From NCBI GenBank assembly GCA_029210695.1, contig JARGFH010000014.1:1-64000 (forward strand): DNA of 64,000 nt, given 5' to 3'. Numbering within the stretch: the first letter of the stretch is position 1; each line of letters begins with the position of its first letter. This document shows, one piece after another, positions 12,738 to 47,906 of the stretch. The notes below the pieces were generated by a model that did no database searches, had not been told where the DNA came from, and saw only the letters and a program-made list of their open reading frames with translations. This stretch comes from Acidimicrobiia bacterium. Lineage in GTDB: Bacteria; Actinomycetota; Acidimicrobiia; Spongiisociales; JAHEDJ01. A program made the position numbers and the translations under genes.

Positions 12738-15700
12738 ATGCTGAGCATCGCCAAGGCCCACAAGGACTATTACCTCCAGAAACTGGGCGAGATCACACCC
12801 CGGGAGGACTACTACCTGCGAGGTGGAACCGCCACTGGTCGTTGGCACGGCAGCGGCGCCGTGGAGCAAGGACTGGAGGGCATCGTGTCGGCGGAGGGCC
12901 TGGTGCGGCTCTTCGACGGTCAGCACCCGGCGACGGGGGAGCAGCTCGGGCGTCAGCTTCGCAAGGACGGCGTGGCGGCCTGGGATCTGACGTTCTCGGC
13001 TGACAAGTCGGTGTCGCTGCTGTGGGCCTTCGGGGACGACCAGGTTCGACGCCACGTGGTCGAGGCGTTCGAGGAGTCCACCGCCGAGGCGCTCACCTAC
13101 TTGGAATCGGTTGCGTCGTCGACGCGGGGAGCATCGCGAACCCCGGTTCGCGACGTTGAGGGCCAGCCGATCCTCGGCGACAACGGAAGTCCTCGCTATC
13201 GGGTCGAGACATGGCCGATTCGAACCCACGGATACGTCTCGGCGTGGTTCACTGAGTTCACGAGCCGGGCGGATGATCCTCAGATGCACACCCACGTGGT
13301 TGTGGGGAACCGGGTGAAGGGTGTCGACGATACGTGGCGGGCGATTGATGGACGTCTCTTGTATCGGCACAAGCTGGCCGCTGGCTACCTCCACGAAGCC
13401 GAACTGCGCCACCGCCTCACCGAACGGCTCGGGGTCCGCTGGCAGCCGGTCCGTAGCGGTGTGGCGGACATCGAGGGCTTCACCCGGGAACAGATCATGA
13501 CCTTCTCGAAACGCCGCCAGGCAATCGAGGAGTGGCGTGACTCCCACGGCTACGCCGACACCGCAGCCGCCAACGAAATCGCCACGCTCGCGACACGAAG
13601 TCCCAAACAAGACCACCCCATCGACAGCCTGATGCCCGTGTGGCTGGAGCGGGGCGCCGAGATCGGACTCACCCCCGAGTCGGTGACAGCCGTGCTGGAG
13701 CGCAACCGGGAGGTCACGGTGCCCGACCCCGACACCATCCACGACCGGATGGCATCCGCCGACGGGCTCACCGCCCAGGCGTCGACCTTCGGACGAGGTG
13801 ACGCCATCAAAGCCGCAGCAGAAGCCCTCCCCGAAGGCGGACGACGAAGCGACGTCGAGGCCATCGCCGACTCATTCCTCCGTCGCTCGGACGTGGTCCC
13901 TATCCTCCCCATCCACCCCACTGACCCAGCGAGCGACCTGCCGATCGAGCTCGACACCGCCGAACTGGACCGGCTGCTTGAGCTGGTCAACTCGAGGAAA
14001 CCACCGACCATGCGGCGTAGCAACGGCGACATCTTCCCCGGGCTGGTCAACGAACGCCGCTACACAACCACTGAACTCCTCACCATCGAACAACGAGTCA
14101 TCGACCGCGCCCAGGAAGGTATCGCAGCCGACCGGTGGACTATCCCTGAGGCGAAGGTCGAGGCCGCCCTCGCGGCGCACACGGACCTCACCAACGGCCA
14201 ACGGGCGATGGTCCACCGGTTCACCGGGTCAGGAAACACCATCGACATCGGCGTGGGGGCAGCCGGGACCGGCAAAACGACTGTCATGGCCATCATCGGG
14301 GAACTCGCCACCGAGACCGGGACACCCGTGGTCGGAACGGCATTGGCGGCACGGGCCGCAGCCGGATTCGAAACCGCCACCGGCATCCCATCCGCCACCA
14401 TCACCCGCTTCCTGTGGGAAACCAAGGCAGCCGGTGGTCTCCCAACCCGCGCGATCGTCGTGGTCGACGAGGCAGGTATGGTCGGCAGCCGCCAGCTCGC
14501 TGCGGTCTCCGACCTGGTCGAAGCAGCCTCCGGGAAACTCATCCTGATCGGCGATCATCGCCAGCTCGCCGAGATCGACGCCGGCGGCCTGTTCGCCGCG
14601 CTGACGGCTCGCCTCCCCGCCATCGAGCTGACTGAGAACGTCCGCCAGGACCAGGAATGGGAACGCACCGCCCTGGCCGAACTCCGCCACGGCTCGATCT
14701 CGCGGGCGGTGGCCATGTATGACCGGCGCGGACTGATCAACGTCGCCGCTACCCCCGATGACACCATCGTCCAAGCCGTTGATGCCTGGTACAGCGACGT
14801 CCAAGACACCGGTGACCTTGCCCAGGTGCTGCTCATCGGACATCGCAACACCACCGTCGATCAGCTCAACCAGCGGGCTCGGGCTCTCATCGCCCAATCC
14901 GGCTTGCTCCACGGACCGGCGGTAAACGCAGGCGATCGCCTATTCCAGGCCGAAGACAGAGCTGTGTGCCTCAAGAACCGTTCGCGGCTGGGTGTGCTCA
15001 ACGGTGATCTCGCAACCGTAATGGCTGTGGACACTGAACGGCGCACGATTACGCTCAGACTCGACCGCACTAACAACACCGTCACCGTTCCCCATTGGTA
15101 CCTCGACGAAGGAAACCTCGACTGGGGCTACGCCCTCACCGGCCACAAGGCTCAAGGCGCAACCGCCCGGCGCGCGCACACGGTCGCCGGAGACGGCGTT
15201 GACCGGGAATGGCTCTACGTCACGATGAGCCGAGGCCGGGAGGCGAACACGATCTACCTCACCGATCCGGACGTCAAAGAGAGCGAATGCACGCACCTAA
15301 CCCACCAACACCCCGAACGGTTGCCTGCCCTCATTACCGCCCTTGGTCGCACCGCAGCGGAGCCGGCGGCTTCTGACTCCGGGCGAGGACCTCGCACGAT
15401 CACCGATGCACAGCTGCAGGCCCGTTTGGCGGACCTCGAGAGCCAGCTCGAATTCGGAGAGGCAAGAAGACCCGTCGACGGTCGGGACGACCTTCTTGCT
15501 GAATACATCGCCCTCCGCCAGGAGACACGCGCCCGACATCGAGACCGGCTCGACGCCATCGCATACGAGCCACCCGGATGGATAGTCGATGTCATCGGCG
15601 AGCGGCCCACCGAACCCGATCGACGAGCTGCGTGGGATCGGATCGTCGATCGAGCGGTTCACGTCCGAATCGAACTTGAAGTTCCCAACGATGCCAGCCA

Positions 15701-15836
15701 TCTTCTGGGACCCGAGCCTCCCAGTCGGGACGTCGCCCGTCGCACAACATGGATGGTCGCCCGCCGGAATATGGACGAGGATCTTCGAGCACTGAACGGT
15801 CCAAGCGATCGAAGCCTTGGTGCAGTCGCTCGCTGA
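12738..15836 (+). CDS. traA: MobF conjugative relaxase-helicase (TrwC/TraA-like)
   Basis: A 1032-residue protein. The N-terminal 300 residues are a MobF relaxase with tyrosine pairs Y11/Y12 and Y25/Y26, the motif FSADKSVSLLW (85-96) and the metal site DPQMHTH (H184, H186). The first metal-site histidine, expected 11 residues before H184, is instead E173. Residues 490-850 are a RecD-type helicase with Walker A GAAGTGKT (507-514), Walker B VVVDEAGM, GDHRQL, and late motifs LTGHKAQG and VTMSRG. The C-terminal 170 residues are charged and less conserved. It nicks oriT, stays bound to the 5' end and pilots and unwinds the strand. The 3' end is intact just before an IS insertion at 15853. Confidence 0.93.
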   Translation: MLSIAKAHKDYYLQKLGEITPREDYYLRGGTATGRWHGSGAVEQGLEGIVSAEGLVRLFDGQHPATGEQLGRQLRKDGVAAWDLTFSADKSVSLLWAFGDDQVRRHVVEAFEESTAEALTYLESVASSTRGASRTPVRDVEGQPILGDNGSPRYRVETWPIRTHGYVSAWFTEFTSRADDPQMHTHVVVGNRVKGVDDTWRAIDGRLLYRHKLAAGYLHEAELRHRLTERLGVRWQPVRSGVADIEGFTREQIMTFSKRRQAIEEWRDSHGYADTAAANEIATLATRSPKQDHPIDSLMPVWLERGAEIGLTPESVTAVLERNREVTVPDPDTIHDRMASADGLTAQASTFGRGDAIKAAAEALPEGGRRSDVEAIADSFLRRSDVVPILPIHPTDPASDLPIELDTAELDRLLELVNSRKPPTMRRSNGDIFPGLVNERRYTTTELLTIEQRVIDRAQEGIAADRWTIPEAKVEAALAAHTDLTNGQRAMVHRFTGSGNTIDIGVGAAGTGKTTVMAIIGELATETGTPVVGTALAARAAAGFETATGIPSATITRFLWETKAAGGLPTRAIVVVDEAGMVGSRQLAAVSDLVEAASGKLILIGDHRQLAEIDAGGLFAALTARLPAIELTENVRQDQEWERTALAELRHGSISRAVAMYDRRGLINVAATPDDTIVQAVDAWYSDVQDTGDLAQVLLIGHRNTTVDQLNQRARALIAQSGLLHGPAVNAGDRLFQAEDRAVCLKNRSRLGVLNGDLATVMAVDTERRTITLRLDRTNNTVTVPHWYLDEGNLDWGYALTGHKAQGATARRAHTVAGDGVDREWLYVTMSRGREANTIYLTDPDVKESECTHLTHQHPERLPALITALGRTAAEPAASDSGRGPRTITDAQLQARLADLESQLEFGEARRPVDGRDDLLAEYIALRQETRARHRDRLDAIAYEPPGWIVDVIGERPTEPDRRAAWDRIVDRAVHVRIELEVPNDASHLLGPEPPSRDVARRTTWMVARRNMDEDLRALNGPSDRSLGAVAR

Positions 15837-18025: not shown

Positions 18026-18957
18026 TGGCGTGTGATCTCCATCTGCAGGCCATCCGAACTTGTCCGGCTCTCGGGCAGGCGCCCCCTCTCGGCAATGGCT
18101 GTCATCCATTCCCCCTGGGCGCGCGGCGCTTTCACCATCGCACCCGGTGCTGACCGCGGACTGGCGAGAATCACATCCTCGACGTGCTTCGGCCATCGGG
18201 TTCGTCGGAACACAGTGGAGTAGCCGGTAGTGGCCGACAGCACCCCAATGACCTGTATCACTTTGTTCGCTTCAGCGAAGCCGGCAAGGCAACGTTCGAT
18301 CAGCCGGTTCGGCCACATCGCTGGACGGAACACTTGCTCGTACATCCCGATTGGCTCGTCTGGGAGCACCAGTCCGTACCCACCGGAGATGATGACAATG
18401 CGCGCCGCTTGATCTGCCAGTTCTCGCAGTGCAGACCGCCCAGCTTTGTAGAAGGTCCCTTCGTATCGCTGAGCAGCAGGGAGGAGCGTCGACTCGTCGA
18501 CACCCGCAGAAGCTGCGTTGTGGCGCCTTCGATCTGACAACTCTCTGTGGAGGTCCCGTGGTAGCGCGTCAAGAATCGAGGTTTGCGTGGGTGGTGCGTC
18601 GCCCCTCCTCTTCGATCCAGAACACGGCACCACGATCAAACAGCCGGCAAGTCGGAGCGTTGGGACCGGAGGCTTAGGACGAAGCCGTGAAGCTTCTAGT
18701 CTCGATCGGGTCGGAGTCTGCAAGGAGCGCTGCGCTGGTGGTGGGATCGAAGGCGCTTCGATCGTCTCCGCTTCGGGCAGGTTGAGTATTCTTCCCTTGG
18801 GTCCCGTGACTCGCTTGGTAACTCCAGCGGAGGCCAGCGACCGGCAGATTTGGTTGACCTGCTGATGAGGTTCGATGCCGGTTCGCTTCCGGATTTCGCC
18901 ATCCGTGAGCCCCGGAACGGACTGGATCAGTTTCAGGATTCGCTCTCGATTGGTCAC
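18022..18957 (-). CDS. HTH plus YaaA/DUF6884-like protein
   Basis: I choose GTG at 18957 (311 residues), preceded by an AGAGAG purine stretch; the longer frame would overlap the upstream gene. Residues 1-60 form a winged-helix-like region (ILKLIQSVPGLTDGEIRKRTG). Residues 110-311 match YaaA/DUF6884-type proteins: CLIVVPCSGSKRRG, LLPAAQRYEGTFY, IVIISGGYGLVLPDEPIG and a terminal GEWMTAIAERG. YaaA proteins bind damaged or modified DNA. In this setting it may read modified bases and pass the site to the GIY-YIG partner with which it overlaps; that is inference. Confidence 0.65.
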   Translation of the reverse strand: MTNRERILKLIQSVPGLTDGEIRKRTGIEPHQQVNQICRSLASAGVTKRVTGPKGRILNLPEAETIEAPSIPPPAQRSLQTPTRSRLEASRLRPKPPVPTLRLAGCLIVVPCSGSKRRGDAPPTQTSILDALPRDLHRELSDRRRHNAASAGVDESTLLPAAQRYEGTFYKAGRSALRELADQAARIVIISGGYGLVLPDEPIGMYEQVFRPAMWPNRLIERCLAGFAEANKVIQVIGVLSATTGYSTVFRRTRWPKHVEDVILASPRSAPGAMVKAPRAQGEWMTAIAERGRLPESRTSSDGLQMEITRQ

Positions 18958-19042
18958 CAGGCCTCTCTTCTGCCCTGTCGATTCTTCAACTTGACATTGG
19001 CAATTTCTGCTGGTCCGACCGGTCAATCTGGCTGGTCGGTTG

Positions 19043-20773
19043 TCAAGACGGCCATCGCCGGCCCTTGCAGAGTTCGGCGGTTGCCTTGGCGATGAGTTCG
19101 GCTCGGGCATCAATGAACGCTCCGTAATCGGCCCGAATGTGATCCGCCCGTTCAGTCTCATCGGCGAAGCTCGAATAGCCACCGACATTCAACTGATCGT
19201 ATGGGATGACGTGAGTGGCGAGCCGATTGGCAAGGTCTTGTTCGCTCAGGTCTCCTCGGTCGATGCGATCACGCAAATAGCGAACGGGCTCCTTCGCTGA
19301 TATGTCTCGATTGGTCTTCCACGTGATCAGGGCGCAGTTCAGGGCGCGGAAGCTCTCCGCTTCCGAGACCTGGCCTTGGTTGACCAGTAGCGAGTTAGGA
19401 AACAGGTGGTGATACTCGCGTCGCGGGAGCTGCTCTCTGGTGGCAGGCGTGTCGTCAGCAATGTCTCGCCCGCCAGCGCGAAGTGACACGGCCAGGATGC
19501 CGCGGGCGAGGATCTCTTTCGTGCTCGGCCAGCCGGCTCGCTTGAAGACCTCTACCGTCGGGAGCGGGAAGAGGTCCTCGTTGAATATCGGTGCCTCCGG
19601 GGCGTCCTCCCCACGCAAGCGTGCGCGCAACCCGCGAAGGTCCTGCAGCTGACGCGTCGCCGCCTGGTTCTCGTATCGACTTGTGAGGAACGACCTCCAG
19701 ACGTAGCTGCGGAGAAGCGATCGTGCTTTGCCGTGCTCGTCGGAATCCTCGGGCACGTGCGGGTGGAGGGCAGAGAGGATTGGTAGCACTGCGGTGGTTG
19801 GGAGACGCCTGCCGTCGTATACCGATTCGTCCTCGAGGAAGGAGATGGCCCATCTAATGCCTGCTGCGATGTTCGACCACTCGTTGACAACCCGATCGAG
19901 ATCCAACTTGAAGTAGCTGGCCTGAGTGGGCGCACGATCATCACGTAGCGCGGCGGTGTCCAGCACGAGGTCTTCGGCGTCGATGTAGGCGCCCACCATC
20001 GGAACGGCGGCGTGGACTTCGCCGATGAGATCGTGCAGGGACTGACCTGTAGCGGCTTCAAGTTGGGCGACGATGATGTCGTAGGCGGTCAATCTGACGG
20101 ATGTCGTATTGAGCTTGACGAAGACGTTCAGTGCGACGTCCCTGGGGGTCTCCGAGGGGAGAGCAAGAAACGGGATGTTGTAAGCGGCTATGGATTCGCG
20201 GAGCGCGTTGATTTGCCGCTCCAGGGCGCGGCTGGCGACAACATCATCGGTGGTCGCTGAGTCGCACCAGCGGCCTATCTCTTGGTGGATATCGCCGGGC
20301 CGAAGCAGACGCAGTGGAATGAAGCCCCGGCCCCAGACCTGAACTGGATCGTCCGCCCATACGGGGTACCGCTTGCCGTTGCGCGACCAGCGGGCCTGTG
20401 AATGCATCCGGGGGACACGGACGCCGCCGTGCTCCTCATCCGGCTCGAGGGAGAGCAGGTATGTGCGGTTTTCATAGTCGTCGTGGAATGACCGCCAGAG
20501 GGCAGTGAGGCGCTGCTGACCGTCTAGCAGGTGCTCGGTGGGTCGTTCGACCGGATCGGGGGAGCCGATCATCTGTCTGCTTATGAATGGTTCCTCGCTG
20601 CCTAGCTCAAGGACGAGCGTTGAGCCTGCGGGTAGACCGTTCAACACGGCCTCGATGAGGTTCGAGATCTCATTGTGGCCCCACGCTTCGAAGCGCTGGA
20701 ACCGTGGCAATCGGATCTGTCCTGTCCGGATCCGATTGAACCATTCTGGCAAGTTCCGATTCCTGGCTTCCAC
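19043..20773 (-). CDS. DUF262/DUF1524 GmrSD-like type IV restriction protein
   Basis: A 576-residue protein, GTG start at 20773. The N-terminal DUF262 part has IRLPRFQR and HLLDGQQRLTALW (DGQQRL at 84-89), the ParB-like NTP-binding core of GmrS. The C-terminal part has YHHLFPNSLLVN with a later NCALITWKTNRDIS, the HNH-type DUF1524 nuclease of GmrD. Single-chain fusions of this kind act as modification-dependent (type IV) nucleases against glucosylated or otherwise modified phage DNA. It lies 58 bp downstream of the DUF499 gene and 86 bp upstream of the HTH-YaaA gene, all on one strand. Confidence 0.85.
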   Translation of the reverse strand: MEARNRNLPEWFNRIRTGQIRLPRFQRFEAWGHNEISNLIEAVLNGLPAGSTLVLELGSEEPFISRQMIGSPDPVERPTEHLLDGQQRLTALWRSFHDDYENRTYLLSLEPDEEHGGVRVPRMHSQARWSRNGKRYPVWADDPVQVWGRGFIPLRLLRPGDIHQEIGRWCDSATTDDVVASRALERQINALRESIAAYNIPFLALPSETPRDVALNVFVKLNTTSVRLTAYDIIVAQLEAATGQSLHDLIGEVHAAVPMVGAYIDAEDLVLDTAALRDDRAPTQASYFKLDLDRVVNEWSNIAAGIRWAISFLEDESVYDGRRLPTTAVLPILSALHPHVPEDSDEHGKARSLLRSYVWRSFLTSRYENQAATRQLQDLRGLRARLRGEDAPEAPIFNEDLFPLPTVEVFKRAGWPSTKEILARGILAVSLRAGGRDIADDTPATREQLPRREYHHLFPNSLLVNQGQVSEAESFRALNCALITWKTNRDISAKEPVRYLRDRIDRGDLSEQDLANRLATHVIPYDQLNVGGYSSFADETERADHIRADYGAFIDARAELIAKATAELCKGRRWPS

Positions 20774-20831: not shown

Positions 20832-23800
20832 TCATTCCTCGAACTCGTGGGACTCGAATCCCAGTTGGGTCGCGTTCTCGCTGACCGTTCGACGGGTGCG
20901 ATCATCAAATCCGTCGGATTCGGCATTGATCTCGACGGTGATGGACACCTTGCTGCCCTCTGCGTTGCCGAGGTGGGAGGCGACCTCGTTGATGAGATCT
21001 CCGAAGTCTCGGATTGCCCGAACTGGGTCCAGGTGCTTGCGACCGTAGAAACGGGTCGGCACGACGAGCCCCGGGGGCTTGGGCTGATCCCCACCGTCGT
21101 CCTCGTTGCCGCCCACCGCTCCGGGTTCATCGACGGTCTGCTCGTCAAGCTGACGCCGAGCCCGATCGGGCTTGACGACGACAGCGGTCTGGCTCATCCC
21201 CACTCCGACGTGCTCGCCGGTTTTGAGTCCTCGATAGCGGTCGGTTGACTCGTCGTGCGCATCTGCGAAAGCGAATGTGTCTTGCTCCCAGTTGATCTGG
21301 GCTGCTCCATCTGAGACGGCAGCGGCGAAAACTCCGAAGTTGGCGAGCCTCGGCATGTACAGGTACTGGGAGTAGTAGCCCCATAAGCGGCGGACTCCGA
21401 TGTGGTCGCCGTCCCACAGGCTTGCCTCGGGCCGATCGAGATCCATCCGTATCCGAATCCCGCCGTAGGAGGAGATCAACTCCTCAGATGATTCCAGCTT
21501 CTTGGCCGTCTTGGCAGCTAGGTCGCCATTTCCTGCCGCCCGGATCGCTTGCCACGAGATCTCCGCCTTGCCGGGCTGCTGCTTAGGTGTGAGGACATGT
21601 TGGAACGTCTCACCGATCCGCTGCCGGATGGTGTCGTCGGCCTCCTGCAGCTTGGTTTCGGCCTGCTTGATCTCCGACCCAGACAAATCGAGTCCGTCGG
21701 CGCCTCTCTCGTCGAGAATCGACTTCCACGCCATCCAGTCCCATACCGCCGATCTCAGTTCGGGAACTCGGTTGGGGTCGGCGGCGAGGAAGGCGAGGAG
21801 GTTGCGGTTGATCCGTGGCCCGCCCTGCCTTTGCTCGAGGATCGCGGCGGCTGCTTTCACGGCGGGTGACTCGTCGGTGGCGCCTCGGTGGGGAGAAGTC
21901 GCGGGCAGGATCACCAGCCTGACACCGTCGTCCTCGTCGGGGACGTCCCCCGGGCCATCGGGAAAGACGTGCACCGCTGCGAACGGACCAGTGGACCGGG
22001 CGGCCTGCACCCGGTTGCGGATCTCGATGTCGGCGTCATCGTCGGTGAAATTCGATTCGGCCCGATCGCCCGCCAAACGAGTGAGGGTGGGTTTGGTGTC
22101 GTACCAGTACTGGGCGCCCTGGCTGTATAGGTATGTGGCCTCCGACGACAAGTGACGGAGAGCGTCCTGTATCACTCCCGGTTTCTCTCCCGGCTGGACA
22201 CAACCCAACACGATGTGCTTCAGATCGACCCCTCGACGATCCTCCTGGCGTGGAGCCGACCCGACATAGGTAGCACGGGCCACCCGTCGAGTCGCCGAAT
22301 ATTTCCCGAGATTCGGCCGAGCCTGGTCAATGCGGAGGGGCAGCGAGTTAGGTCCGTCGACATCGGTACGGATGATCGGCTCCCACCGGTCATCGAGATA
22401 CTTGGTGAGCTCGGAGACGACCGCACCCGAATCCATCGGGATGGTCCCTGGCATGATCATCAACGACGAGTCGCCCCGTTTCCACAGCTCCGAGATGACG
22501 GTCGCCATCAATCGCAGCATCCCGCGGGTACGTTGGAATCGCTCCAGGGTCGACCAGTCTTGATAGAGTCGGTCGAACAGCTCAGGATGGATCGGGTAGG
22601 CCGCCGCCATCCGCCGTTGATACTCGCCCTCCTTCGACTCGGATGGAAAGTCGGCGGGGCTATCCAAATACAGGTTGTGGTAGGCGCGGATCACCGCGTC
22701 GCGTTTCTTTGCCTCGGACGCCGGGACTGGTTCGAACAGCCGGCGACGCACGATCTCAAACGACTCATCAGTCGACGCCGGTCGCCACTGGGCTGCTTTA
22801 CGGGAAACAACGTTCTTGAGCTTGGCGAGGGCAAGCTGACCTTTCTCGCCACCAACCTCCAGATCCGAGGAGGGTATCGACACCAGCACCAGGGTGTTGT
22901 CCACTGCTGAAGCGGCCTCGGTGAGCGCCTGGGCAAACGTGAACTGCGTGTCGAAGTCGCCGCCCGGAAGTCTCATCTCGTCGGTCTTGGTGGGAAGGTC
23001 GCGGGCGTAGGCGACCCATTCGTCGATGAGCACCAGTGCGGGCCCGAACCTCTCGAAGAGCTCGATCAGTTTGGCGCCAGGGTTGGTCGCGTTCTGGTCG
23101 TCCTCGGCAAGGATCTTGTAGCCCTCGACGCCGCCGAGCTGCCACGCGAGATCACCCCACAGGGTGTGAACCTTGGTCCCGTCTGGCTTCTCCTGCGGTG
23201 TTGACGGTGACACCATCTGCCCGACGAACACCGCCCGCCGTACCTCACTTGGGATCGACAGGTCGTCATCCGCAAGGACGTCGTCGACCCCGGACAACAC
23301 AGATGTCGGTACGCCGGCGACGAGGTGAAAGAGGGCGATGAGGCTGTGCGTCTTCCCGCCGCCGAAGCTGGTCTGCAGCTCGACGATCGGGTCGCCGCCC
23401 CTGCCCGAGAGCCGCGAGGCAGCGATCCTGATCAGGTCGCGGAGCCCATCGGTGATGTAGGTGCGGGCGAAGAAGGCCGTCGGATCCTGATACTCCTCGT
23501 CAGCCTTGCTGTGAAGCACTTGGTAGAGATCAGCAGCGAACTCGGCCTGTTCGAAACGGCCCTGCGCGACATCTGGATGGGGAGCGACGATCTCGCGCCA
23601 CGGCGCCAAACCCGCGGCTGGCTCGCCTTTGGTTGCTTCTGCGGCCAGCTTGCGTTGCTCGCCTCGTGCCTCTTCGGAGAACACCTGTCGCTGCAGACCC
23701 TTGCGAAGATCCTGCACTTGCTCGACGTGTTCACTTGCGTGGAAGGCCTTCAGGAGGATCTCGCAGAAGTCGAGAATGCGGTAGGTCTCGTCAGAGCTGA

Positions 23801-24095
23801 ACTTCTTGTTGTGCGCCCAGTCGTTCCGTGCGTCCCTCAGCAGGATGACGTAGCTGCGTTCAGATTTGGAAAACACTTGTTTGAAGAACTGATTCCAAGT
23901 GGCTTCCATCCCCTTCAGCAAGAAGGCGAGATCATCGGGATCGGGATTCCGGTCCGGCTGGTACAACGCGTCGTTTACCGACTGAGTCCACCCGTTGCCG
24001 TACATTGATTGCCAGGCCTTCTCCAGCCCAGGCCGGATCCCATCCCGGAGGAGGGTAAGGGCCTTTCCAACACGTTCGTGATTCGACATCGCCAT
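20832..24095 (-). CDS. DUF499 ATPase with N-terminal Swt1-type HEPN domain
   Basis: A 1087-residue protein. Residues 5-140 are a HEPN region of the Swt1 type with DARNDWAH (R90 to H95). Residues 180-700 are the DUF499 (COG1483) AAA+-like ATPase: TSFGGGKTHSLIAL (Walker A at 245-250), ALVLIDEW (Walker B) and a later TRGMLRLMATVI region. The C-terminal 200 residues are mixed. In defence islands DUF499 proteins travel with DUF1156 methylases and large helicases, as here. It begins 8 bp after the methylase stop. Likely role: energy-dependent effector or sensor of the system, with HEPN as a possible RNase. Confidence 0.85.
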   Translation of the reverse strand: MAMSNHERVGKALTLLRDGIRPGLEKAWQSMYGNGWTQSVNDALYQPDRNPDPDDLAFLLKGMEATWNQFFKQVFSKSERSYVILLRDARNDWAHNKKFSSDETYRILDFCEILLKAFHASEHVEQVQDLRKGLQRQVFSEEARGEQRKLAAEATKGEPAAGLAPWREIVAPHPDVAQGRFEQAEFAADLYQVLHSKADEEYQDPTAFFARTYITDGLRDLIRIAASRLSGRGGDPIVELQTSFGGGKTHSLIALFHLVAGVPTSVLSGVDDVLADDDLSIPSEVRRAVFVGQMVSPSTPQEKPDGTKVHTLWGDLAWQLGGVEGYKILAEDDQNATNPGAKLIELFERFGPALVLIDEWVAYARDLPTKTDEMRLPGGDFDTQFTFAQALTEAASAVDNTLVLVSIPSSDLEVGGEKGQLALAKLKNVVSRKAAQWRPASTDESFEIVRRRLFEPVPASEAKKRDAVIRAYHNLYLDSPADFPSESKEGEYQRRMAAAYPIHPELFDRLYQDWSTLERFQRTRGMLRLMATVISELWKRGDSSLMIMPGTIPMDSGAVVSELTKYLDDRWEPIIRTDVDGPNSLPLRIDQARPNLGKYSATRRVARATYVGSAPRQEDRRGVDLKHIVLGCVQPGEKPGVIQDALRHLSSEATYLYSQGAQYWYDTKPTLTRLAGDRAESNFTDDDADIEIRNRVQAARSTGPFAAVHVFPDGPGDVPDEDDGVRLVILPATSPHRGATDESPAVKAAAAILEQRQGGPRINRNLLAFLAADPNRVPELRSAVWDWMAWKSILDERGADGLDLSGSEIKQAETKLQEADDTIRQRIGETFQHVLTPKQQPGKAEISWQAIRAAGNGDLAAKTAKKLESSEELISSYGGIRIRMDLDRPEASLWDGDHIGVRRLWGYYSQYLYMPRLANFGVFAAAVSDGAAQINWEQDTFAFADAHDESTDRYRGLKTGEHVGVGMSQTAVVVKPDRARRQLDEQTVDEPGAVGGNEDDGGDQPKPPGLVVPTRFYGRKHLDPVRAIRDFGDLINEVASHLGNAEGSKVSITVEINAESDGFDDRTRRTVSENATQLGFESHEFEE

Positions 24096-24103
24096 AACTC
24101 AGA

Positions 24104-26869
24104 TCATTCTCCCAATCTCTGCTGCACTGGGGTTTCAGATCGGCTGGCGAGTTTGACCAAATCGGGCCACGCCTGAACGAGGGTGTTATAGGCCACAGCC
24201 TCCTCGGCCCATCCACGCCGATCGGCTGCTTGATAGAGAAGGTAGGCAAGCTGCCTGGCACGCTCGCCGATCCCTGTACCGATCCAGCGCAGGAGATTTG
24301 CTGCGACCAGCTCCGACTCGTCGAGGGATGCGATGAGGTTTTGCGTGACCTCCCAAACGGTTAGACGAGTGTCGGCAGAAGGGTCCCAGTCTGCGACGAG
24401 ATCATCCCGATCGACCAGGTACACCTTGCCGTCCTGCTGGACTGCGATACCGGCTTGAACTACGCCGCCTACCGATGTGTTCTTCGCTTTCGACAGCGTC
24501 TCTGCATCCCCGAAGAGTCCTGGTTTCATTCCGTTCTGCTCATACCACGTCAAGGCCCATCGCGTATCAGCGTCGAACTCGGTCTCCTCCTCGGAGAGCA
24601 CCTCCTGAAGCACTTCGTTTATGAGCGTCAGAGCGTGGCGAACGGGCATATCGGTACCATCGGATTCGATGACTTTCGAAAATCGAGAGAAGACGGCCAT
24701 TCCGGGTCCGATTGCCGATTGAGCCATGTCCACGGGTGCGATGGACTCTCGTTGGAGAAGTCGGATCGCCGGCGGCAGTTCCCGGCGGAGAGCGGCCAAG
24801 AATTCGCCGCGAGTCGCCAGCGGGGCCATCGGGTGTTGGGGGCGACAGGCTATGACAATCGAGGATGCGAGTGCTGCCTTCTTCATCGCTAGCGGACGAT
24901 TGACCAGTTCCGTCCTCACGGGCCATGTCGACGTAATGGCGAGGCCCGCAGACCTCAAGCCTTGCAAGAAGGTCTCCCAGCCCGTCGACGCGGTTCCGCT
25001 TGCGTCCGTCTCGGCCTGCTTAAACGCGTAGAACACGACGGATGGGAAGTCGGGATTCTGGTGCGCGGCGACGGACGAGAACACCTCCTTCATCCCGGCC
25101 TCGAAGTGTGCCCTTGCCTCTGGATTGGAGCCATGGCGGTAGGGGTCTGCGATGAGTTCTTCGGCCTTGGGAGTGAGCACAGTGGATAGCTCGTCGGGCC
25201 AGACGTCGCGAAGGCTCGTTCTCAGCCATACGTAGAAGAAGTCGGAGAGATCGGAGTACCCAATGTTGTCGTAGTAAGGAGGATCAGTGACTACAACTGG
25301 GTTCGCAATCTCCGCGACCCTCGCCGTCGCATCTCGTTGGGCCACCGACGCGGCCCCGACCGCCGGCAGATGTTCGATCGCCTTCGCAACCCAATCCAGC
25401 ATCGACCGCCAACTCCCAGTTGATCCCGAGAAAGGGTTCACCTCGGCGAAATCCCACGTCATAGGAATCGCTTGGCGAGCGAACGTGTTCCTGATCAGCT
25501 CCTTTGAATTGTGCCAGGTACATACCGTGGACCAATAGTCGGCACACTTGTCCAGAACGAAAGCAAGGTACGTCATCACGGCGTCCGCGTATGCCGTCCC
25601 TTGGTCACCGCCATCACGGAGTCGGCGGCCATCGATTGTCAAGCCAGCCGCTTGAGCGTCTCGTTCGATGACCATCCGAACTTCTTGAAGCTGGTCCGAG
25701 AATGTCGTAAGTGCGAGGAGTTGGCGGTCTGTGAACAGGTCCTTCCAATGGCCGAGCCCGTACCCCGGCGTCTTGAAATCGCGCGGGTTCCGGGGAAGCT
25801 CTGCTTCGAGGGCTGATGGAATGTGCACGGCGGGTAATGCGGGCGTCTCAATGCCGGCGACATACTCGCGACCGCGGGGACCCTGCGCTACGGCCGCCAT
25901 CGCATGGCGACCGAAGCCCGTCGTTCGGCCTTGCTGACGTACGTAATCGAATCCGAATGGCGTTCCCGTTGCTACGCAGCGCCCGGCTGTGCTCCGGCCA
26001 ATGGTTCCTTCCGGTGGTTCCCCTCCCTCGCGTATCGCGTATCGGATCTCCTGGCGGTGTCTGTCAATGATCGGCTCGATCCATATGGAGGGCTTTGACT
26101 TAGTCGCTGAACGAAGCGTCCAAGAGCGAACAAGGGGTACATCTCCGCTCCATGCTGGATCTGGAGATGCCACCGTTCGCGCCCAGATCCACGCAATCGC
26201 GGTGGCGTCCTCGCTTCCCTTGCTGGCTGGCAACCGCACCTTGGGATAGAGGCTTCCGATCCGCTCGAATGCTTGTTCTTGAATCCGAAGCCCGTAGTAG
26301 CGGACGTCTTCTGCCAATCCTTGGGCTCCGCGCCAGCTCTTCAGACCCGACCCCTGCCGGGCTTCGGGGTTCATCGGTGGCTTCCGGTCGAACCGAGGAG
26401 GGATCTCGATCATCGCCTTCGAGACCAACACGGCAACAGGGTTCAGATCGCCGCCGAACGCGGGCAGCCCAAGTCGCTGCGCCTCTAGCGGTATCGATCC
26501 GCCTCCACAGAAAGGGTCAAGAACAGTGGGTAACTCGCCGTCGCACGAGTCCAGTATCTCCTTCGTTGCCTCGTCGAGTATGTGCTGATTGTCCGAGTTC
26601 TCCCAACGCACGAGTTGCTCAAGGATCCGGAAGAGCCGTTGTCGCTCCGTCTCCTGCGCCTCAAGGGTCGGGAATAGCTCAACGTCTGCCGAAGGGTCGT
26701 TGACCAAGGACGCCCACAGAACAGCTCGCGCTGCAGCGAGCGGACGACGCGCCCACCAGAGGTGCAGAGTTGAGGGATGGCCGTGCCGGATGGATTTCTC
26801 CCTTGCAGCCTCCCGATTGATGGCGTCGAGCGGCAGCGCCACCTCGATCAACTTCTTCTTGTACGTCAT
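24104..26869 (-). CDS. DUF1156 adenine-specific DNA methyltransferase
   Basis: A 921-residue protein of the COG1743 type. The N-terminus has LIEVALPLDAINREAAREKS and GHPSTLHLWWARRPL, diagnostic of DUF1156. LDPFCGGGSIPLEA (from 117) is the SAM-binding motif and VTDPPYYDNIGYSDLSDF (about 530-547) is the catalytic DPPY motif of N6-adenine or N4-cytosine methylases. The ATG start overlaps the TGA of the helicase gene (ATGA at 26866-26869), so translation is coupled. It probably marks host DNA so that the rest of the system spares it. Confidence 0.9.
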   Translation of the reverse strand: MTYKKKLIEVALPLDAINREAAREKSIRHGHPSTLHLWWARRPLAAARAVLWASLVNDPSADVELFPTLEAQETERQRLFRILEQLVRWENSDNQHILDEATKEILDSCDGELPTVLDPFCGGGSIPLEAQRLGLPAFGGDLNPVAVLVSKAMIEIPPRFDRKPPMNPEARQGSGLKSWRGAQGLAEDVRYYGLRIQEQAFERIGSLYPKVRLPASKGSEDATAIAWIWARTVASPDPAWSGDVPLVRSWTLRSATKSKPSIWIEPIIDRHRQEIRYAIREGGEPPEGTIGRSTAGRCVATGTPFGFDYVRQQGRTTGFGRHAMAAVAQGPRGREYVAGIETPALPAVHIPSALEAELPRNPRDFKTPGYGLGHWKDLFTDRQLLALTTFSDQLQEVRMVIERDAQAAGLTIDGRRLRDGGDQGTAYADAVMTYLAFVLDKCADYWSTVCTWHNSKELIRNTFARQAIPMTWDFAEVNPFSGSTGSWRSMLDWVAKAIEHLPAVGAASVAQRDATARVAEIANPVVVTDPPYYDNIGYSDLSDFFYVWLRTSLRDVWPDELSTVLTPKAEELIADPYRHGSNPEARAHFEAGMKEVFSSVAAHQNPDFPSVVFYAFKQAETDASGTASTGWETFLQGLRSAGLAITSTWPVRTELVNRPLAMKKAALASSIVIACRPQHPMAPLATRGEFLAALRRELPPAIRLLQRESIAPVDMAQSAIGPGMAVFSRFSKVIESDGTDMPVRHALTLINEVLQEVLSEEETEFDADTRWALTWYEQNGMKPGLFGDAETLSKAKNTSVGGVVQAGIAVQQDGKVYLVDRDDLVADWDPSADTRLTVWEVTQNLIASLDESELVAANLLRWIGTGIGERARQLAYLLYQAADRRGWAEEAVAYNTLVQAWPDLVKLASRSETPVQQRLGE

Positions 26870-30384: not shown

Positions 30385-30544
30385 CGGCCCACTCCAATAC
30401 CCTTGCGCTGTCTGGGCCAGACTACCGGATGGGTCTGACAGAGACGCTCGGTCACCAATCGGCGCCGACCTGATCCGATCGTCGAGATAGGGCTGAGCGG
30501 TCTAGATTCGCCGTGTGGGAACCCACCGAGAGTTGCGAACACAC

Positions 30545-32317
30545 CTAGGTGGCTGCCGAAGAAGTGGCCTTCGGCGAGTGGTCGGGGAGGTTGGTTGTCG
30601 TGTCGGGGGTTGATGGTGACGTTGGCGTGTCGGGGGTGGGAGGGCGCGCTGGCGCGTCGGGGTGTTCAAGCATGTTGCAGTCTTCCCGGTTCGTCGAGCA
30701 GAGCGAAGAGCCGCTTCATGTTCAACAAGCCGGCGGTCACACGCTGTTGGAGGAGCACTTTGCGTGTTCCGCGGTAGCGGGCCTTGCCCATCCCGTGGCG
30801 TTTGCCTTCGGCGAGTTTGCGTTCGACCAGGGCCCGTCGTCGGAGCTTTCGGCGGGTTGACGGTCGGGCCTGTTCGGCTCGGGCGGCTTGGAGACGCGCC
30901 TCGTGGAAGTTCAGGGTGATGCTGCGGCCGTTCGAGTTCGTGGTGCAGCGTTGGCGCAGCGGACACGCGTCGCACAGGTCGGGCGCGAACTTCATGACCA
31001 TGACCCTTCGGCCCTTGTGGTCGGTGCTCCAGCTGTGACGGGTCGTGGCGTGACCGGCGGGACAGGTCGCCGAGGGTGTGTCGGGGTCGACGACGAAGTC
31101 GGTCTTGACGAACTTGCCGGTGGACGCTGGCGGCTGGGTCTTTGCGGTGACTTTGACCCCGATCTCCTCTGCGGCGACCCGGGTGTCGCCGTCGCCGTAG
31201 GCGGTGTCACCGAGCATCTCACGCACCGGGACACCGGCTGCCTGTGCGGTGGCCACCATCGGAGCCGCCTCGGGCCCATCGGGGGCGTTGGCCCCGGTGA
31301 CACCCACGGCCAACACCAGTTCGGTGTCGTGGTCGGTGAGGAGGTGAGCCTTGTAACCGTCGACCCGCTTGGAGGGGCTCTTTCGCCCGTGACGCATGTC
31401 GGGGTCGACGACCGACACGATCCGGTCGCGGGCCACACCCCGGCGGATACCCGGCCCACCGCCGTCGTCGGGGGCCTCCTCGATGTCTTGGTCGACGATA
31501 CGCTCCAGCAGGTCGCGGGCTTCAGCGAGGTCGTCGACCCCGGCGGTGGCTGCCAGCACCGCCCGGGCCACCTCGACCAGCTCACCGAGGTGGGTCCGCC
31601 TGGCGTCAGCGTCGGCCCAGTCGATGCCGGCCTTGTTGACACACACACGGTCGATGGCCCGGCGCAGCCGCTTGGCCAGCCGGTCAGAAGCGGCGCTACC
31701 CAGCTTGGCGATGGCCTGACGCAACAGGCTGTAGGTGTCAGAGACCGCAGCCGCTCCCATCACCCCGGTCGAGTCGGCGATGGCGAGCACCCGCTTCGGG
31801 AAGAGCCCGGCCTCGACGGCGTGGACCAGAGTGGCTCTCAGCACCCGTTCGTCGGCGTCGTTGAGGAGCAACCGGCTGCGGAACACCGCCAGTGTGGTGT
31901 GGTGAAACGGCACCTGATCGGCCTCCACGCCGAGGGCGCGCTTCCAGTCGAGATCCTTGGCCGCCCGCCGCGCCGCCTCCCGGTCGCTCACGTCGTCGCG
32001 CACCTGCAGCAGCACTGTCTTCATCAACAGCGCAGGGGGGATCGAGGGGCGTCCCATACCCATCGAGTAACAATCGGCGAAGTCCTCGTCCCTGACGAGG
32101 CCGTCACCGTGGGCTGCCATGCGGGCATAGAACGACGAGTCGTCGCCCTCAAACAGCGGCGCCAAAAGCGACTCCACCCCCAGCAGGCTCCCTTGCCGAT
32201 CAGTAGTTCCAAGCATCACAACCTCGCAGAGACACCATGGAACGAGTATCGACGAAAACGACCCCGATCGCGAGCACCCTCGGCCCCCACCCACCGACTT
32301 TTTCGGCAGCCACCTAG
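30545..32317 (-). mobile_element. IS1182-family insertion sequence flanked by CTAG
   Basis: Inverted repeats GGTGGCTGCCGAAGAAGT (from 30549) and the complement of the sequence ending TTCGGCAGCCAC at 32313 enclose one transposase gene. CTAG lies outside both ends (30545-30548, 32314-32317), as for a 4-bp target duplication. The element splits the gene described at 30515-33231. Confidence 0.88.
30666..32216 (-). CDS. IS1182-family transposase
   Basis: I place the start at ATG 32216 (516 residues); the upstream extension runs through the terminal repeat. The N-terminus has a GRPSIPPALLMKTVLLQ region and YARMAAHGDG. DDE-type catalytic motifs lie in LAIADSTGVMG, MLGDTAYGDGD and near the C-terminal ARYRGTRKV helix region. 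A cysteine cluster (CPAGHATTRH, CDACPLRQRC) and KLRRRALVERKLAEGKRHGMGKAR-type basic ending are typical of IS1182 transposases. No frameshift; likely active. Confidence 0.88.
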   Translation of the reverse strand: MLGTTDRQGSLLGVESLLAPLFEGDDSSFYARMAAHGDGLVRDEDFADCYSMGMGRPSIPPALLMKTVLLQVRDDVSDREAARRAAKDLDWKRALGVEADQVPFHHTTLAVFRSRLLLNDADERVLRATLVHAVEAGLFPKRVLAIADSTGVMGAAAVSDTYSLLRQAIAKLGSAASDRLAKRLRRAIDRVCVNKAGIDWADADARRTHLGELVEVARAVLAATAGVDDLAEARDLLERIVDQDIEEAPDDGGGPGIRRGVARDRIVSVVDPDMRHGRKSPSKRVDGYKAHLLTDHDTELVLAVGVTGANAPDGPEAAPMVATAQAAGVPVREMLGDTAYGDGDTRVAAEEIGVKVTAKTQPPASTGKFVKTDFVVDPDTPSATCPAGHATTRHSWSTDHKGRRVMVMKFAPDLCDACPLRQRCTTNSNGRSITLNFHEARLQAARAEQARPSTRRKLRRRALVERKLAEGKRHGMGKARYRGTRKVLLQQRVTAGLLNMKRLFALLDEPGRLQHA

Positions 32318-33204
32318 ACCTCGCGATACGAATTGACGAGGCTATTCGTCGTTCGGCAACACCGGAGGTGCTGACGGTGCCCGCCGTGGATGTCGGAGGG
32401 TGGGCAGCTGTCCTCGCTCCTGGTCGAGCACGTCTCACCGAGAATCTCTGGCTTGCCCGCCGCACCTATTCGACGGTCCACTTCTTGATGCATCACACCG
32501 ATACCGTCGACACCCCGGCTGGCGACTTCACGGAGGACGCAGGCGTTCTCATGAGAAGGTTGCTCGAACTCCTCGCCCAGACTTCATGGCTCACGGACTA
32601 TGAACCCCCCGCTGACCTTGCCCTACCTGCAAACATCGGAGAACGAGCAGACCACGAGGCGCTGGCAAGGACGGCACCATGGCCCGACGAGGAAAGCCTC
32701 TCATTCGTCCTGGCCTACCTTGCGGCCGCTGTCGACTGGATCGACGTCCAGGCGCTGAGAGCGGATCGAGCTGAGCTTGCGCAACAACTCAAGACGGCTC
32801 GCGCCCTTGCGGGCGGCATCGCTGGTGAAAAGGCGTCGGAACGTCATGCAGCCGGAATCGCACTGATCGAGAACAGAGATGCGTTGATAGAAGCACGGCT
32901 CGATACGATCGGGGCGCCGAGAACGCCACGGTCGGACACGACCGGGATACTCACGAGACTCGGCGGCCCTTATGTAATGGCATGGCGGTATGAGTCAGAC
33001 GCGGCGCACGCCATGGCGATGGGGCGCTTGCACCAGCGTGGCCTAGACGAGGAGCCAATGCTCGGCGCACCTTCGCCCCCGTGGCGACGGGAGATGGTCG
33101 TGTCGGTGGCCAACGCGACGATGCTCGAAATGGGATCCCGAGTCCTCGGTGCCTTAGAGGCAGATACCTCGGAACTTCAAGCAGCAACTGCCGACCACCG
33201 TGAG

Positions 33205-34896
33205 CTACTGGAAGCCCGAGCCTCCAGATAGTCGCGCCTGCAAGCCGCCAAACCATGCTCTCTGGTGGCTCGGCACACGTAGGTCTATCCGTGCAGGGTG
33301 GAGGTTTCCGTAGACCAGGACTCCGGTGCCGGTATCTGCGCGTCTCAGGTCGGCGGTGGGGGCGAGTGGTCGGTGTCGGGTGGATTCGGTGGTGCTGGTT
33401 TTGCCGTCGGGGCTGCGGCTGCGGGATTCCTCAGTGACCTGTTCATCGCCGATGAGGCGGCTGATGTAGTCGAGCGTGGGTGTGTCGGAGATGCCGGCGA
33501 GGACGACTTTGGCGCGGTGATTGTTGATGACCGTTTGGGCGAACGTGCCGTAGCGGGCCTGGATCTGGGCGAAGTCTTGCCAGATGGTGACGAGTTGGAT
33601 GCCGACGCCGCGGGCGGTGGAGGCGATCTGAGCGAGGTCGGGGAGGGGGGCGATGTTTGCTGCTTCGTCGATGGCGAGCAGGAGTGGTTTCTGGAGGCGG
33701 TCGGTGGTGCGGTTGGCTCGGTCGTAGATGCGGGCGATTGTCTGTTCGATGAGGGCGGTGAACAGCGGGCGGAGGCGGGCTTGTTCGTGGAGAGGTCCGC
33801 AGATGTAGAGGGTGTGGTTGCCTCCGTCGAGGAGCCGGTCCGGGTCGATGGCCGGTTGGCGGTTGGTGGTGGCGAGGACGCCGGGGTCGGCGAAGGCGGC
33901 GAGCACCGTCTCGGCGGTGGTATAGGCGGAGGAGCGGGAGCGGTCTTCTCGGTTGATCGTGGCGGCGAATGCTTGGACGGCGTCGACGCTGCGGGCTTTG
34001 TGCAGGGCCTTGATCGGTTCCTGCTCGTCTTGGAGGTCAACCCAGCGGAGGACATCGGCCATGGTGGCCCCGCTGGTGGCGGCGGCGTAGAGGAGTGGGG
34101 CGAGGAGCTTCTGAGCGACGGCGTACCAGAAGTCTGAGTCTTGGAGTCCGCCTCGCTCTCCGGCGCGGGCTGTGGAGGCGAGCCATGCGGCCATCCGTAG
34201 GGCGCCTTGCCAGTCGGTGCAGGTATGGAGTGGTGACCATCCTGCGGTCGGTTCACCTGTGGAGGCGACGGGGTCGAAGACGTAGGTGTCTCCGATGGTT
34301 CGGCGGTGGTCGATGGTGTGTTCGAGGAGGTCGCCTTTGACGGAGGTGGCGATGACCGGTCCGTCCCATTCGAGGAGGGCGGGGATGGCGAAGCCGGTGG
34401 TTTTGCCGGTGCCGGCTGGTCCGATGACGGCGACGGAGTGTTGGGCTTCGGTGGCGATGAGGCGCCGGTGGACGGTGCCGAGGGTGAGCCGTCCGGGTTG
34501 GGGCTTGCGGATGAGGAGGGGTTTGAGGTCGCGTGGTTTGGCCCAACGCGCCGAACCAGACTCGGCCTCTGTCTGGCGCTGGTGCCAGCGGTAGCCGAAT
34601 GTGGCGACGGCGAGGAGCGCAAGGGTGATGACCGTGAGGGTGGTGTAGTAGGCGAGAGGTCCGGGGAGGAGGCTCCGTGCCGGTGCCGGCCAGGCATTCG
34701 CGGGATCGGTGGGGTCGACGATCAGTTGCCAGAGAACGATCGGGCTGTCGAACAGCGGTGTGGGGAGCCAGGTGCCCTGCCAGAGGCGGGCCGCAACCTG
34801 GCCGGCGCTCCACACGAGCGTACAAGCGGCAACCAGGACGCTGGCGGCGACGGTGAGGAGCTTCTCGGCGTCTGGTTGGGTCGCGGGCGGGGTCAC
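33205..34896 (-). CDS. VirD4/TraG-type coupling protein
   Basis: A 563-residue type IV coupling protein. Two hydrophobic segments (about 12-34 and 80-102) anchor the N-terminus. Walker A is GPAGTGKT (159-166), Walker B is LLLAIDEAAN (about 385-394), and the conserved QLVTIWQDFAQIQARYG follows. It delivers the relaxase-DNA complex to the secretion channel, with the ATPase facing the cytoplasm. It is the last gene of the minus-strand transfer operon; its ATG overlaps the previous stop (ATGA), while its own 3' end overlaps the convergent split gene by 27 bp. Confidence 0.93.
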   Translation of the reverse strand: MTPPATQPDAEKLLTVAASVLVAACTLVWSAGQVAARLWQGTWLPTPLFDSPIVLWQLIVDPTDPANAWPAPARSLLPGPLAYYTTLTVITLALLAVATFGYRWHQRQTEAESGSARWAKPRDLKPLLIRKPQPGRLTLGTVHRRLIATEAQHSVAVIGPAGTGKTTGFAIPALLEWDGPVIATSVKGDLLEHTIDHRRTIGDTYVFDPVASTGEPTAGWSPLHTCTDWQGALRMAAWLASTARAGERGGLQDSDFWYAVAQKLLAPLLYAAATSGATMADVLRWVDLQDEQEPIKALHKARSVDAVQAFAATINREDRSRSSAYTTAETVLAAFADPGVLATTNRQPAIDPDRLLDGGNHTLYICGPLHEQARLRPLFTALIEQTIARIYDRANRTTDRLQKPLLLAIDEAANIAPLPDLAQIASTARGVGIQLVTIWQDFAQIQARYGTFAQTVINNHRAKVVLAGISDTPTLDYISRLIGDEQVTEESRSRSPDGKTSTTESTRHRPLAPTADLRRADTGTGVLVYGNLHPARIDLRVPSHQRAWFGGLQARLSGGSGFQ

Positions 34897-45714: not shown

Positions 45715-46731
45715 TCAGCCGCCGCGCCCGGCCCCGACGGCAGCGAGCCCTGCACCGGCGGTGCCGGCGTTGGAGGAGCCGCCACCACTCGACGTGGCCG
45801 GGAGCTTGAAGTCCAGGCCGAAGACCTTCTGCCACAACTCAAGGCTGTGTTCAATCGACGTGTCGTCCTCATACGCGACCTTGGTATCGGCCGCGATGGA
45901 CGAGATCTTCTTCCGGAATGCCTGGTAGGTGTCCTCTGTCCAGCGGTGGTCGAAGGTGATCGGGTTACCGTCGGGGTCGGTGGCACCTGAGGGATCGGCG
46001 ATGGAGGGCTTGGTTGGGTTGGCCTGGAGCCATTCGTTCAAGTCGGTGATTAGGTGGAAGAAGGTGGTTGGCAGATCCTCGTAGTAGGACGGGTCTGCGA
46101 TCTTGCTAGCTGCGTCGACTCGTTCGCCGAGCATCGCCGTGAGCAGGACGGACCGGGTGCGCCTGAAGCTATCGCGATGGTCGCGAAGGTACTTCAGCAG
46201 GCGGATGACCCGCTTGAGGTGGCCGCCGGTGGTGTCGTTCTTCTCTTTCATCCACGCGGTGAAGCCGGCGGGGTCGGTGTCTTCCCACTCGTCGCCGTCA
46301 CCGTTGACGATGACTTGACGGCCATCGCTCAGCACGACGAAAGGTACAACATCGACGTGGTAGTCGCCGGCGTACACGACGCGTACGCATCGGCACTTGG
46401 GCGGCTTGACCAAGTCCTTGTAGGTGCCGTTCCGGGCGAGTGCCGCGTGGACCACAGTGATGTACGTCTTGGGGCTATGGGCCCAGGCCTCCTGCTCGTC
46501 CATGACGAGCATGAAATCAGCGTCGAACTCCACACCGTCCGCCGGCTTGATGATCGTCCCGTGTGGCCACGAACCCTGCGGGTCGTAGTCGAGGACGATC
46601 GAGCCGATCTCACTATCGGCTTGGAGAGCGTCGAAGATTGCGGGGACACTCACGTCCAGGTTGTCGATTCGCGTCTGGTTGATATTGACCGTATTGGTCA
46701 TGAACGCGTTGAAGCTTGCAGTCATTCTCAT
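45715..46731 (-). CDS. CBASS CD-NTase (cGAS/DncV-like nucleotidyltransferase)
   Basis: A 338-residue SMODS-type nucleotidyltransferase. The GSW motif (53-55), D70 and D72 of FDADF, and D127 in HVDVVPF give the triad for two-metal catalysis. A helical C-terminal domain follows, and the last 28 residues are a flexible Gly/Ala/Ser tail ending in Gly-Gly. The tail fits the rule that Cap2 joins the CD-NTase C-terminus to targets. On phage infection the enzyme would make a cyclic oligonucleotide for the SAVED effector upstream. Its ATG overlaps the TGA of the effector gene; a second ATG lies at 46725. Confidence 0.88.
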   Translation of the reverse strand: MRMTASFNAFMTNTVNINQTRIDNLDVSVPAIFDALQADSEIGSIVLDYDPQGSWPHGTIIKPADGVEFDADFMLVMDEQEAWAHSPKTYITVVHAALARNGTYKDLVKPPKCRCVRVVYAGDYHVDVVPFVVLSDGRQVIVNGDGDEWEDTDPAGFTAWMKEKNDTTGGHLKRVIRLLKYLRDHRDSFRRTRSVLLTAMLGERVDAASKIADPSYYEDLPTTFFHLITDLNEWLQANPTKPSIADPSGATDPDGNPITFDHRWTEDTYQAFRKKISSIAADTKVAYEDDTSIEHSLELWQKVFGLDFKLPATSSGGGSSNAGTAGAGLAAVGAGRGG

Positions 46732-47906
46732 TGTGCGCTGACCTCCAGTGCAGGGTGGTAGGAGCCGTCGTCGCGTCGGTCGTAGACGACGAGGCGGGGA
46801 TGGATGCCCCAGCCGACGGAGCGGCCGAGGGTGACGCCGACCGAGACCGGTGCGGCTGGGAACACGTGGATGCGCCGGACGGTCTTGTCCGACTGCTCGA
46901 GTTGGCCGAGCATCTTGCGAACCGCTCGCTCAAACGAATCGCGCACACGACGGCTACATACCGAATCAGTATGTGGTGTGCCGTCCAACTCGACGAAATA
47001 GGTGGGAAGGCCAGCAGTCTCTGCCGGCAGCTCGGCGGGGTGGATCGTCCCTGAGGCATTGATGATTAGGACAGCGTCGGTGGCCGGACGGGGTCCGGGT
47101 GCGTGCGACGGGTCCTCGCGCCGGGCCACGAACTCAGGGTCATCGTCGGCCGCTGCCGGCCAGATCCAGTTCTCCGTGGCGCGGTGTCGTTGGAACACGT
47201 CGACGGTGAGGGCGTCATCGATGCGCGAACCGAGGTAGACAAGCAGGGGGAAGCGGGCAATCGCGAATACGCTGAGATGCGGCACGATGCCCTTCTCGAC
47301 GGCGGGCCGAAGGCGTTGAGCGATGACCTCGTCGATCCGGGAGGCTGCTGCTTTGTAGTAGCTATCGGCGGCGGTGAGTTCGCCGGAGATCTGGCGAAGG
47401 TCGATCTCGACGCCCCGGCGGTCGAAAGACAGAGCGAGTTCGGGAAACCGGTTCGAGGAGCGAAGTACTGCCTCCGTCGCAGCCTCCACGCCAAGGTCGA
47501 CAGTTGCCCCGCGCACGTGCCCCTGCATGCGGAGCAGCACCGTACGTCTGCGACCAACGGTCTCGGTAGCCTCGAAGACCCGACGCTCGTGTTCCTCCTT
47601 CAACGTGCTGATCTGCTCCACGGTCAGTAGATCGAGTTGCGCACGCTTGTCGGCGTCGGGGTGATGGAGGCCGCAGAGCAGCAGCAGGTTGTCCGCCGCA
47701 TTTCGCTGGTCGCCTGGAATCTGATGATCGCCTCGGGGGCCCGCAGCACTTGCTGCAACGTTGTGGGCGACCTCGCCGAGCAAGACCGGTCGCAGGGTCA
47801 GATCCGACTCCAGCAGGTACGCATTGCAGAAAGCGCACCGTCCACCCGAGCGTACCCACACTCTTAGTCGTTCGTTCTCCGGAACCTTGCCTCGACGTCC
47901 AGCCAT
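46728..47906 (-). CDS. cap5: CBASS effector: HNH endonuclease-SAVED (Cap5-like)
   Basis: From ATG 47906 with a GAGGTGAAG ribosome site, 392 residues. Residues 10-110 are an HNH nuclease (CAFCNAYLL, GEVAHNVA, NLLLLCGLHHPDAD). Residues 150-392 are a SAVED domain, with PATDAVLIINASG, and RRIHVFPAAPVSVGVTLGR near the end. In Cap5 effectors the cyclic nucleotide bound by SAVED drives assembly, and HNH then degrades cellular DNA. It is the first gene of a three-gene minus-strand operon and is divergent from the HTH-metallopeptidase pair. Confidence 0.92.
   Translation of the reverse strand: MAGRRGKVPENERLRVWVRSGGRCAFCNAYLLESDLTLRPVLLGEVAHNVAASAAGPRGDHQIPGDQRNAADNLLLLCGLHHPDADKRAQLDLLTVEQISTLKEEHERRVFEATETVGRRRTVLLRMQGHVRGATVDLGVEAATEAVLRSSNRFPELALSFDRRGVEIDLRQISGELTAADSYYKAAASRIDEVIAQRLRPAVEKGIVPHLSVFAIARFPLLVYLGSRIDDALTVDVFQRHRATENWIWPAAADDDPEFVARREDPSHAPGPRPATDAVLIINASGTIHPAELPAETAGLPTYFVELDGTPHTDSVCSRRVRDSFERAVRKMLGQLEQSDKTVRRIHVFPAAPVSVGVTLGRSVGWGIHPRLVVYDRRDDGSYHPALEVSAQ

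Follow-up and report, generated by a model that had tools for sequence, protein, structure and literature searches.

An IS1182-family element interrupts a likely dispensable accessory gene beside the Hma defence operon of an Acidimicrobiia conjugative element

In the 64,000-nucleotide stretch of Acidimicrobiia DNA analysed here (hereafter the window; contig JARGFH010000014.1, positions 1 to 64,000), a 1,765-bp IS1182-family element at 30549-32313 splits a gene whose start codon is GTG 30515 (Table 1). We consider it likely that this gene was a dispensable, element-specific accessory located beside Hma, and that it was knocked out by insertion of a CTAG-targeting IS1182 element. The element entered at codon 11-12 and duplicated CTAG; its target, which may encode a distant DUF5677-related protein, sits in a defence cargo slot between traG and Hma, divergent from HmaA; in sequence, HmaA, HmaB, HmaC and the 130-bp intergenic region were spared. 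The gene, reduced to a 304-codon remnant, is most likely non-functional, and, if it acts with Hma, it would do so as an element-specific accessory. An IS insertion of this kind, which hits an accessory next to a defence system and leaves the core untouched, is an ordinary event that is cleanly displayed here; the wider value lies in the cargo slot, a single position where Hma, BREX or type IIG modules are found in related conjugative elements of these bacteria.

Table 1. Features of the interrupted gene and its surroundings (positions in the window)
Feature	Position	Strand	Evidence
TrwC relaxase-helicase, other edge of the cargo slot	12738..15836	+	Pfam TrwC; homologues in L097 and L103
GmrSD_N-domain protein, downstream of HmaC, variable cargo	19043..20773	-	Pfam PF03235
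HmaC, DUF499 ATPase with N-terminal Swt1-like HEPN	20832..24095	-	PADLOC PDLC00662, 977 bits; Pfam DUF499 and HEPN_Swt1
HmaB, DUF1156 DNA methylase	24104..26869	-	PADLOC PDLC00660, 1051 bits; Pfam DUF1156
HmaA, SNF2-type helicase, 1172 aa	26866..30384	-	PADLOC PDLC00659, 1471 bits, full length
5' fragment of broken gene: GTG start, 11 codons (MGTHRELRTHL) and one CTAG base	30515..30548	+	sequence; same start and upstream TAG in L009
Left CTAG target repeat	30545..30548	.	sequence; seven related IS ends in the genome likewise abut CTAG
IS1182-family element, 1,765 bp	30549..32313	-	inverted ends; own-genome relatives
IS1182 transposase, 516 aa, intact	30666..32216	-	NCBIfam NF033551; Pfam DDE_Tnp_1_6 and DUF772
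Right CTAG target repeat	32314..32317	.	sequence
3' fragment of broken gene: 304 codons and stop; probable distant DUF5677 relative	32317..33231	+	L009 72%, L011 28-30%, hhalign
TraG/VirD4 coupling protein, tail-to-tail with broken gene, edge of the cargo slot	33205..34896	-	Pfam T4SS-DNA_transf and TraG-D_C; 78-79% homologues in sister elements

The inserted element belongs to the IS1182 family by its transposase (314 bits against NCBIfam NF033551, above the 270 cut-off), its short inverted ends and its repeated 4-bp palindromic target, and nothing about it is unusual for that family. The terminus GTGGCTGCCGAA.. begins at 30549 and its inverted copy finishes at 32313; the ends read GTGGCTGCCGAA(G/A)AAGT and match each other at 17/19 bases. 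Most of the related copies that this genome contains are found at the ends of contigs, and CTAG abuts 7/7 further ends that have a readable outer flank, so CTAG is evidently the preferred target of this element, in contrast to the GGCC reported for the IS1182-family ISPsy36 (PMC8027508). The CTAG is duplicated rather than borne by the element, because retaining one copy when the flanks are joined gives an open frame that aligns gap-free to an uninterrupted orthologue (L009, described below), whereas retaining zero copies gives a frameshift.

The empty site was rebuilt by a script that joined the flanks and kept one CTAG, and the joined flanks form a single 315-residue open frame that begins at GTG 30515 and whose stop codon ends at 33231. 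A TAG in the same frame (30503-30505) precedes the start by four codons, and the insertion point falls at codon 11-12 of the 315-codon gene. A sequence-only reading of this DNA had proposed one ancestral gene across the IS1182 element, preceded by an in-frame stop and divergent from the defence helicase; its coordinates, MGTHRELRTHL leader, 304 downstream residues and frame are all correct, the orthologue passes gap-free through the junction, and both the stop and the divergent orientation relative to HmaA recur in L009. The 304 codons beyond the insertion contain 0 stops and 0 frameshifts. We sought an ATG, GTG or TTG inside the IS that reads into the gene frame and found none, and therefore the remnant yields at most a product minus 28 residues, from the internal GTG 32368. 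With only that internal GTG left to it, the broken gene is most likely non-functional; a product shortened to this start might retain activity. The genome is a draft of 181 contigs, and a misjoin is unlikely because both IS flanks match the L009 orthologue.

This orthologue (L009:9965-10909, from an Acidimicrobiia MAG; 314 aa, 72% identical to the broken gene) is the only relative confirmed in the genome-collection scan, and it is an uninterrupted copy beside Hma, of the kind that the earlier reading had proposed to look for. Its gene order is that of the window, divergent from the helicase and tail-to-tail with traG, and its start codon and the position of its upstream in-frame TAG are identical to those of the reconstructed gene. 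The alignment across the junction (marked by a slash) is ungapped, with MGDSRILQAHL/HLAVGVDEA in L009 vs. MGTHRELRTHL/DLAIRIDEA in the window, and cacacctgcacctcgcg vs. cacacctagacctcgcg at the DNA level. Of the 4,359 stop-free peptides that begin at a start codon of the window, none but that of the true start scored as high against the first 11 residues of the orthologue. The joined frame is thus unlikely to be a chance product. A distant homologue (L011, in G239; 28-30% identity) lies outside any Hma context among unrelated genes. The window's own genome has a single copy of the broken gene; no homologues were found in plasmids or in viral contigs, nor, besides the window's own, across 397 genomes of the phylum.

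The encoded protein is probably a distant relative of DUF5677 (PF18928), a family of unknown function. Searches of Pfam, PADLOC, NCBIfam and PHROGs gave no family for the gene (FnrL and phage-structural matches were far below a meaningful score), and the DUF5677 Pfam cut-off was reached by neither the gene nor its L009 orthologue (0 matches); L011 came to 15.6 bits against a cut-off of 27.1 (E 0.017). The relationship is suggested by an hhalign comparison of the gene profile with a DUF5677 set drawn from the same order (probability 73%, P 3e-5; reversed/shuffled controls P 0.24-0.93), by a match of that set to L011 (E 2.8e-4) and by the R-x3-E and S-x3-H positions of DUF5677, which are kept in order, although the gene is only about 15-24% identical to members. 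No PDB relative was found by sequence, and two structure predictions gave helical models with a mean pLDDT of 46-49, too poor for fold comparison.

Between the broken gene and its L009 orthologue, dN/dS is 0.11, with synonymous sites near saturation, and this is similar to the values for HmaA-C (0.09-0.13); such a value indicates purifying selection on the gene. The insertion had been called recent in the earlier reading, and in qualitative terms this holds, as the intact 304-codon frame, the Hma-like dN/dS and the perfect CTAG repeats all point that way; a date was not obtained because of the near-saturated synonymous sites and because no near-identical IS copy was found (the nearest being own-genome pieces of 81-90% identity and a 71% copy in G224), so that neither a clock nor a sister copy dates it. 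Fourfold-site divergence of the window (12738-40871) from the L009/L103 element is 0.58-0.71 in Hma and the gene vs. 0.30-0.45 on the traG side, with TrwC at 0.53. These differing silent-site values suggest different histories for cargo and backbone; the gene and Hma could have travelled together, or the backbone could have been homogenised by recombination.

The neighbouring operon is, by its gene content, an Hma system, with three core genes together and nearly full PADLOC profiles. Hma (helicase-methylase-ATPase) was defined in PMC8565338 as a candidate system of three genes, and PMC12839542 reinterprets it as a BREX-related system of the type-1 DUF499-centred kind. As in these descriptions, all three cores are present at full length in the order A-B-C, and the DUF499 ATPase is HEPN-fused, as in a described subset; in contrast, the broken gene is absent from the described core components, and here GmrSD_N and GIY-YIG genes follow the operon. 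HmaA and the broken gene are divergent with 130 bp between their starts, and at the sequence level the insertion leaves HmaA, HmaB, HmaC and this intergenic region untouched. Downstream of the GmrSD_N gene, a 388-aa protein (18022-19188) has weak matches to DpdC (E 0.001) and DUF6884.

We asked how often the gene accompanies Hma. In a class sample of 395 genomes, HmaA (counted at E below 1e-200) occurs in 26 and a homologue of the broken gene in 2, the two coinciding only in the window's genome, which leaves 0/25 for the other Hma genomes. Profile searches at 22 other Hma loci, each with 2.9 kb or more of sequence upstream of HmaA, likewise gave no homologue, nor did any other protein family recur upstream of HmaA at these loci, except in runs of closely related chromosomal neighbours; L009 is the sole other carrier found with the gene beside Hma. 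The gene is therefore not a conserved Hma component, being absent from 25 of the 26 Hma genomes and from the 22 other loci, and having a homologue in G239 that lacks Hma. The sequence-only reading had regarded it as a possible lost seventh component of the defence operon, a tempting view that comparison with other Hma loci corrects, and in the window the three Hma core genes have their full length in its absence. The six other components implied by that count are not a fixed set either, because the L009 cargo, which has the gene and HmaABC, lacks the GmrSD gene and the other downstream cargo genes of the window (no match to the GmrSD protein was found anywhere in the L009 genome). This absence elsewhere makes it most likely that the element lineage carries the gene as a dispensable passenger or an optional helper, and not as part of the Hma core. 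A lineage-specific functional link to Hma is nonetheless possible, as the gene lies beside HmaA in the same orientation in both carrier elements. A related proposal, that it was a true lineage-specific Hma part (a divergent regulator or helper) lost from the window by insertion, would draw on its adjacent and divergent position in both carriers, the short intergenic region between the starts, a constraint similar to that on HmaA-C, and a divergence that is higher in the cargo than in the backbone around it, consistent with the gene and Hma moving as a unit; we judge it unlikely, however, in view of the other Hma genomes and loci that do without the gene and of a relative that occurs without Hma. 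We likewise doubt that a DUF5677-like divergent helper acted here as an element-specific Hma accessory whose loss to the IS changes how the locus works or is expressed.

Two further readings would place the gene outside the defence cargo or deny that it was broken. Were it a conjugative-backbone gene unrelated to Hma, its tail-to-tail arrangement with traG in both elements (with overlaps of 4 and 27 bases) would be expected; but three sister elements (G000:C22, G000:C61 and G101:C18) with traG 78-80% identical have no homologue of the gene beside it, other cargo occupies the region past traG, and the gene is single-copy in its own genome, and we regard this reading as very improbable. Scarcely credible is the proposal that GTG 32368 opens the real gene, an ORF of 287 aa, in which case the upstream IS breaks nothing. 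An open frame from that codon does exist, and homologues beginning there had been named in advance as the observation that would overturn the reconstruction; the L009 orthologue instead starts at the reconstructed N-terminus, 28 residues before that point, and reads GTT in place of this GTG, and L011 also extends further N-terminally. The preferred reading is that of a dispensable accessory gene of this element, knocked out beside Hma.

The setting is, judged from its relaxase, coupling-protein and mating-channel genes, a conjugative element (TrwC, T4SS-DNA_transf/TraG-D_C, an AAA_10 VirB4-like protein and TrbL, the last just below cut-off), which could be integrated or a plasmid. Hma lies in its cargo slot between traG and TrwC. 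The sister elements, for all the similarity of their traG, carry different contents next to it, which shows that this space is exchanged: the slot of G000:C61 (L098:2468-14798) holds the BREX genes brxB, brxC, pglX, pglZ and brxL, that of G000:C22 (L097:9238-16691) a type IIG enzyme and an HKD-SNF2 helicase up to its TrwC, and that of G101 other genes beside traG. The L009-element slot runs from the gene through HmaABC, an ATP-grasp protein and a small ORF to TrwC.

One genome carries three related conjugative elements with differing defence modules beside traG, namely BREX, type IIG with an HKD-SNF2 helicase, and Hma (window 12738-34896). The ATP-grasp protein of the L009 element (L103:5761-7277) resembles ribosomal-peptide maturases (TIGR04187, 258 bits, below the cut-off of 350) and is accompanied by a 188-aa ORF. 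Towards TrwC in the window, a 251-aa GIY-YIG ORF (17441-18196) matches, at residues 196-225, a segment beside TrwC in a sister element at 70% (L097:16660-16749), and this partial match perhaps marks the edge of the exchangeable slot; an ISNCY-type transposase (15957-17342; NF033593, above cut-off) separates the GIY-YIG gene from the TrwC relaxase. Elsewhere in the window, a primase (10343-12265) combines DNAG and Toprim domains with an ArdC-N anti-restriction domain in one protein, and beyond the conjugation genes a SAVED-domain protein (46728-47981; PF18145, E 8e-37) is encoded, as in CBASS-type defence.
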